Positions 15,708 through 16,244 of a stretch of DNA of 64,000 bases are shown here, one piece after another. Position 1 is the stretch's first letter; the number at the start of each line of letters is the position of its first letter. A model generated the notes under the pieces. The model worked only from the letters and a program-made list of their open reading frames with translations. It had not been told where the DNA came from and made no database searches. The stretch spans positions 31,403 through 95,402 of the forward strand of contig CALAJQ010000034.1 in NCBI GenBank assembly GCA_937922785.1, in the 5' to 3' direction. The position numbers and the translations under genes are program-made. The DNA comes from an uncultured Acidimicrobiales bacterium (GTDB lineage Bacteria > Actinomycetota > Acidimicrobiia > Acidimicrobiales > SZUA-35).

Positions 15708-16244
15708 CTAGGAGTATTGCGCAGCTAGCTCCAGAACCTTGTCTTGATCGAACGCCCCACGCCAGCCAAGTAGCGGTTGGCCGGAAGGGTCTAACAAGAT
15801 GGCGTTCGGTTGACTGCGGATCTGGTAGAAGCTCCAGGTATCAAAGCTCGGGTCCCAGTACATTTCAACGCCATCGGTTCCGGTGCTAGTTAAGAACTGC
15901 TGGGCTTCCCCAAGTGAGTCCTGTGCCCCTAGGCCCACGACTCGAACTTTGTCACCGTGTTCTTGCACAAACTGTGCAACTTCAGGCGCTTCGCGCCTGC
16001 ATGTGGGTCAATGAGGCGCCCAGAACCAAACCAAGATGGCTTGATCACCACCAGCTAGCTGGCTGCCGAAGTTTACTGTGGACCCTTCGTTGAGACTTAC
16101 AACATCAACTGAGGGGAAAGTCTCGCCGCCTGCTTCGCCACTAGGGGCCGAGGCAGCGGGTTCTTCGGTGGATCCGCAGGCGCCAGCAGCGAGCCCAAGG
16201 GCCATCACTACCGCGGCTGCGCGCGTTTTCATAGCTACAGACAC
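15708..16244 (-). CDS. Candidate selenoprotein: thioredoxin/TlpA-like redoxin lipoprotein with in-frame TGA (Sec) at 16008..16010
   Basis: ORFs 16008..16244 (lipoprotein signal MKTRAAAVVMALGLAAGACGS ... ILVWFWAPH) and 15708..15968 lie in the same frame. The single intervening stop is TGA, at the first Cys of WCxxC: WFWAPH[U]PTCRREAPEVAQFVQEHGDKVRVVGLGAQDSLGEAQQFL. Alternative ATG start at 16232. Confidence 0.82.
15983..15999 (-). promoter_or_regulatory. Candidate bacterial SECIS hairpin
   Basis: Minus strand after the TGA: CCCACATG-CAGGCGC-GAA-GCGCCTG; 7-bp perfect stem, 3-nt loop beginning with G, loop starts 16 nt downstream of the TGA. Confidence 0.7.

Follow-up and report, generated by a model that had tools for sequence, protein, structure and literature searches.

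The stretch of DNA analysed here (the window, 64,000 nucleotides) contains on its minus strand, at 15708..16232, a gene for a TlpA/thioredoxin-like lipoprotein with one in-frame UGA at 16008..16010, and the question is how this codon is read and which RNA signals might direct its reading. The frame is open on both sides of the single TGA, giving an uninterrupted protein of 174 aa (16232-15708) if the TGA is taken as selenocysteine (Sec), which would then be residue 75 and the first residue of a UPTC active-site motif. About 50 relatives carry the same TGA. The translated protein has a lipoprotein-type start and contains the stretch ILVWFWAPH-U-PTCRREAPEV with its CxxC-type motif, and thioredoxin-fold families match it above their cut-offs. 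Among proteins of solved structure, the best match is DsbF (3ios, E=5e-13), which has Cys at the UGA position. The gene thus has what is expected of a bacterial selenoprotein gene: its UGA occupies a redox-active position, homologues with Cys exist, and the frame stays open beyond the codon. None of the NCBIfam selenoprotein models matches the lipoprotein. The neighbouring genes encode a molybdopterin oxidoreductase, a PfkB kinase, a KduI/IolB protein, an aldolase and an M23 peptidase, with no evident partner of the lipoprotein among them. The ORFs common to related loci appeared to be mostly antisense artefacts and were set aside.

With regard to the machinery for Sec, SelA, SelB, SelD and tRNA-Sec are all encoded by the genome. 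SelB scores above the NCBIfam cut-off (TIGR00475), and selA lies directly upstream of selB on the same strand. The SelB winged-helix model (PF09106) found no match in the genome, and the same model matched in only one control. The tRNA-Sec has a UCA anticodon and scores 66.7 bits, above the Rfam score. The SelD of this genome itself has one in-frame TGA; UGA-containing selD genes are well known. In a search of 395 genomes from this class of Actinomycetota, the lipoprotein's best relatives had exactly one in-frame TGA each, and 72 of the 75 UGA-bearing genomes among the matches listed are covered by the selA list, while the remaining three (G379, G188 and G292) have selD. Because the machinery is present in the genome and the UGA-bearing relatives occur in genomes with selA or selD, Sec is the only well-supported reading, and judged from these comparisons the UGA of the lipoprotein gene very probably codes for selenocysteine.

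The genome appears rich in selenoproteins, with at least six UGA-bearing thioredoxin/TlpA-like genes including that of the window, in addition to the UGA-containing selD on C16. The other UGA-bearing thioredoxin-like loci are C6:186000-186392, C5:43521-44033, C20:41596-42030, C8:93913-94302 and C10:68311-68769. The thioredoxin-like locus L051 (C8:93500-94700 of the same genome, minus strand, first TGA at 555) has two in-frame TGA codons in the motif APW-U-PH-U and is a possible UxxU double selenoprotein. One UGA-bearing thioredoxin gene of this genome, of the W-type defined below (L050:1154-2200), adjoins an EF-Tu-like gene.

To compare the RNA downstream of the UGA, 79 distinct UGA-bearing relatives and 12 Cys relatives were extracted. 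The UGA relatives fall into two types. The H-type (n=69, including the window) is defined by an AGUU or GGUU loop motif at a fixed position, whereas the W-type (n=10, mostly with APW-U) has a GGUC loop at nt 30-33 in a covarying stem. A scan of the genome's own contigs yielded only one Cys relative, as the query had Cys in place of the UGA. Two Cys relatives (L102 and L104) are W-type-like around the motif and are possibly former selenoprotein genes that have switched to Cys. At four loci (L027, L030, L031 and L042) two UGA-bearing paralogues adjoin, and L240 (genome G043) has, besides its in-frame TGA, an in-frame TAG within the stretch that corresponds to the second hairpin described below (GAGTAGTT), possibly marking a dead gene.

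The preliminary description of this locus pointed to a SECIS-like hairpin (hp1, CAGGCGC-GAA-GCGCCUG, 15983..15999, minus strand) after the UGA. The perfect 7-bp stem with its 3-nt loop is indeed there between 16010 and 15983, the order on the minus strand being TGA (16010-16008), CCCACATG, CAGGCGC (15999-15993), GAA (15992-15990) and GCGCCTG (15989-15983). The distance of 16 nt that had been given for its start is correct for the loop, as 15 nt intervene and the loop lies at nt 16, but not for the stem, which starts 8 nt after the UGA. When the 36 nt from the UGA were folded with RNAfold, a tool that had been suggested for a check, hp1 was the minimum free energy (MFE) structure (-12.6 kcal/mol, z -2.19 relative to dinucleotide shuffles), and at -11.3 kcal/mol on its own it is the strongest single stem. 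When codons were drawn from the codon usage of the window with the protein held fixed, a 7-bp stem arose at this place in 0.5% of the draws. A 90-nt fold starting upstream of the UGA instead paired the 5' arm of hp1 with a GGCGCCT preceding the UGA; this pairing was set aside, as its partner would be inside the ribosome with the UGA in the A site.

Immediately beyond, 3 nt downstream of hp1, begins a second hairpin that is absent from the preliminary description (hp2, UUGCACA-GUU-UGUGCAA, 15963..15979, minus strand, loop 15972-15970). Both hairpins are part of the MFE structure of the 50-nt fold (-19.8 kcal/mol, z -3.33, matched by none of 200 shuffles). The hp2 stem occurred in 1.2% of the synonymous draws, and the two hairpins together in 0.0075%. 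On its own hp2 of the window is weak, at -6.5 to -7.2 kcal/mol compared with the bSECIS consensus limit of an MFE of at most -7.5 kcal/mol, and no bulged U of the E. coli kind is evident in it.

The relatives reveal that the two hairpins are conserved in different ways. In the H-type genes hp2 has a fixed position at nt 32-48 (counting the U of UGA as 1) and an (A/G)GUU loop; 98% of its pair cells in the 69 sequences are standard, and three pairs have changed on both sides. None of 500 shuffles reached its values for pairing, double changes or covariation, counts which for related sequences are not to be read as probabilities. In a synonymous-codon test with pooled codon usage, the H-type genes gave a mean z of -3.03 for hp2 with 91% below p 0.05, compared with +0.10 for the Cys relatives (n=12), in which the hp2 columns do not pair. 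Hp1 also proved more stable than synonymous draws in the H-type genes (mean z -2.30, 71% below p 0.05; -0.27 in the Cys relatives). Its stem and loop are less constant: the loops of the UGA relatives are GAA, GAG, AAGCC and others, and 57% of the cells are paired in the window's register. The orthologues therefore do not keep the exact stem and register, which by the refuting condition of the preliminary description counts against that precise structure, but not against a hairpin at this place, since a stem of 5 bp or more is present there in 61 of the 69. Taken together, the comparison indicates that hp1 is a real RNA-level signal, although its register and loop drift.

Which of the two hairpins SelB would bind can be judged against the published bSECIS model, which places a G early in a small loop located 16-37 nt from the UGA, the next base often being G or U (PMC13188914). 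Hp1 had been thought to fit these rules, and it does have G as the first loop base; the next base is A, however, and its spacing lies at the short edge of the range. The loop of hp2 reads GUU, or AGUUU with the A-U pair open, and at 34-35 nt from the UGA it is within the range, so that hp2 fits the loop rule better than hp1. On account of this G-U loop, hp2 is a candidate for, and probably constitutes, the SelB docking hairpin, i.e. the SECIS core. A covariance model of hp2 run on the same genome brought up no family beyond thioredoxin-like genes, apart from weak further matches. The idea of a SECIS-like hairpin at hp1 thus holds in so far as the structure is not due to chance and accompanies the UGA and not the Cys relatives, but hp1 is probably not the SECIS core. 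Since its register and loop are loose while hp2 is fixed, hp1 would more naturally be a folded spacer than a protein-binding site.

The same layout was found in a different protein of the same genome and class. In the UGA-containing selD genes of the class, hp1 (nt 11-29) has 89.7% of its cells paired with 12 double-change cells, and hp2 (nt 30-46) 97.0% with 11 double-change cells, values not attained in 500 shuffles in either case. The synonymous z values were -1.92 and -3.18 for hp1 and hp2, respectively, as compared with +0.23 and -0.32 in Cys selD, where the two-hairpin layout was not found. The arrangement in selD differs from that of the TlpA-type genes in that hp2 follows directly on hp1, the loop G is nt 37 and not nt 39, and hp1 is fixed in place with covariation. 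Outside the class, 16 UGA-containing selD genes gave a weaker excess (-1.32 for hp1 and -1.96 for hp2), and 15 UGA-bearing thioredoxin-like genes gave z values of -1.87 and -2.68, with clear tandem folds in several of these relatives from elsewhere in the phylum. The results from selD and from outside the class thus show that the two-hairpin layout is common to two protein families and extends beyond one class.

We therefore propose that the UGA could be decoded by means of a tandem bacterial SECIS, in which hp2 would dock SelB and hp1 would act as a folded spacer between the UGA and hp2. A folded hp1 would occupy about 17-19 nt and so keep hp2 within reach of SelB, with a linker roughly as long as that of E. 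coli fdhF. With hp1 folded, the unpaired nucleotides between the UGA and hp2 number 10.2 on average in the TlpA-type genes and mostly 7 in selD, as compared with 11 in fdhF; this match with E. coli may be coincidental. As hp1 mostly starts 7-11 nt after the UGA, it might also stand at the mRNA entrance of a ribosome that has the UGA in its A site, and impede termination there. Hp1 is probably a folded spacer or a ribosome-entry hairpin. The VEQFAR stretch of the UGA relatives would then be partly dictated by the RNA. Overall, we consider it likely that the lipoprotein is a secreted or lipid-anchored TlpA/DsbF-like thiol-disulfide oxidoreductase with selenocysteine as its attacking residue, with hp2 as the docking hairpin for SelB and hp1 as a spacer or entry hairpin. 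For the broader notion that many Actinomycetota use a two-part SECIS, composed of a G-U-loop SelB hairpin about 33-35 nt past the UGA and a separate hairpin needed for efficient Sec insertion, an arrangement that in bacteria would parallel the SRE and SECIS of eukaryotes, we would put the chances at about even.

It could be argued that hp2 functions alone and that hp1 is a by-product of conserved CRREAP codons in a G+C-rich genome. The R-R-E-A-P codons are indeed prone to form palindromes, hp2 keeps its position and its loop while the register of hp1 drifts, and the W-type genes manage with their one GGUC hairpin and show no hp1 excess, which implies that hp1 is not essential for SelB in this genome. 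This explanation is nevertheless unlikely, as hp1 surpasses the synonymous draws in the UGA relatives but not in the Cys relatives, and covaries in selD, which is a different protein. At six W-type loci (L049, L050, L077, L090, L091 and L097) the single hairpin with its GGUC at nt 30-33 resembles the GGUC of E. coli fdhF. Very improbable is the original view that hp1 is the SelB-binding SECIS and hp2 an accessory: although hp1 is the strongest single stem, has G first in its loop and lies near the allowed distance, neither its loop nor its register is conserved and the loop reads GA instead of GG or GU, whereas the hp2 loop is fixed as (A/G)GUU, and what the W-type genes have in common with it is the G-U (GGUC), not an hp1-like loop. 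That the UGA represents a genuine stop or a lesion in a dead gene, or is read by a near-cognate or other suppressor tRNA, is scarcely credible, for although the case for Sec at this codon is comparative, the frame is intact on both sides, tens of species have the same UGA with conserved RNA structure, the Sec machinery is complete and UGA exchanges with Cys at the catalytic residue; both a dead gene and recoding to something other than Sec were set aside as readings of the UGA.

The tandem SECIS proposed here would be an unusual variant of the recoding signal in a gene of an otherwise ordinary kind, although its novelty is to be regarded as provisional. To our knowledge, bacterial SECIS elements have been described as a single stem-loop. 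No bacterial SECIS with two hairpins was described in the open literature searched, which did not extend to the original paper on the bSECIS model, nor did that literature explain how SelB reaches a loop lying up to 37 nt away from the UGA. A conserved hairpin between the UGA and the SelB hairpin offers a testable answer to the latter, namely that the linker is folded, and would represent a compact arrangement for Sec insertion. The layout could also improve the finding of selenoprotein genes in Actinomycetota, in which they are readily annotated as truncated.

Compared with known systems, the protein resembles the UxxC thioredoxin-fold proteins found among the predicted selenoproteins of marine metagenomes (PMC13188914; PMC1088965), including thiol-disulfide isomerase-like and TlpA (cd02966) proteins, in having a thioredoxin fold and UxxC, but the genes here form an APH-UxxC and an APW-UxxC group and occur in several copies per genome. 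The E. coli fdhF element consists of one upper hairpin 11 nt from the UGA, with a bulged U17 and G23/U24 in the loop (PMC8659212). Hp2 is like fdhF and the bSECIS model in that it lies in the coding frame after the UGA and has a small loop in which a U comes after the G; it differs in being close to the energy limit and in having an independent hairpin between it and the UGA. In eukaryotes, the SRE of SELENON and other genes is a hairpin a few nucleotides after the UGA, separate from the SECIS, which represses termination and promotes the insertion of Sec (PMC8704476). Hp1, starting after 8 nt, is similarly placed and may be analogous, except that the eukaryotic SECIS is found in the 3' UTR whereas the two hairpins described here are adjacent in the coding frame of bacteria. 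Eukaryotic SREs have been proposed to derive from bSECIS elements (PMC4561486), and the tandem layout would provide a bacterial parallel for that proposal.
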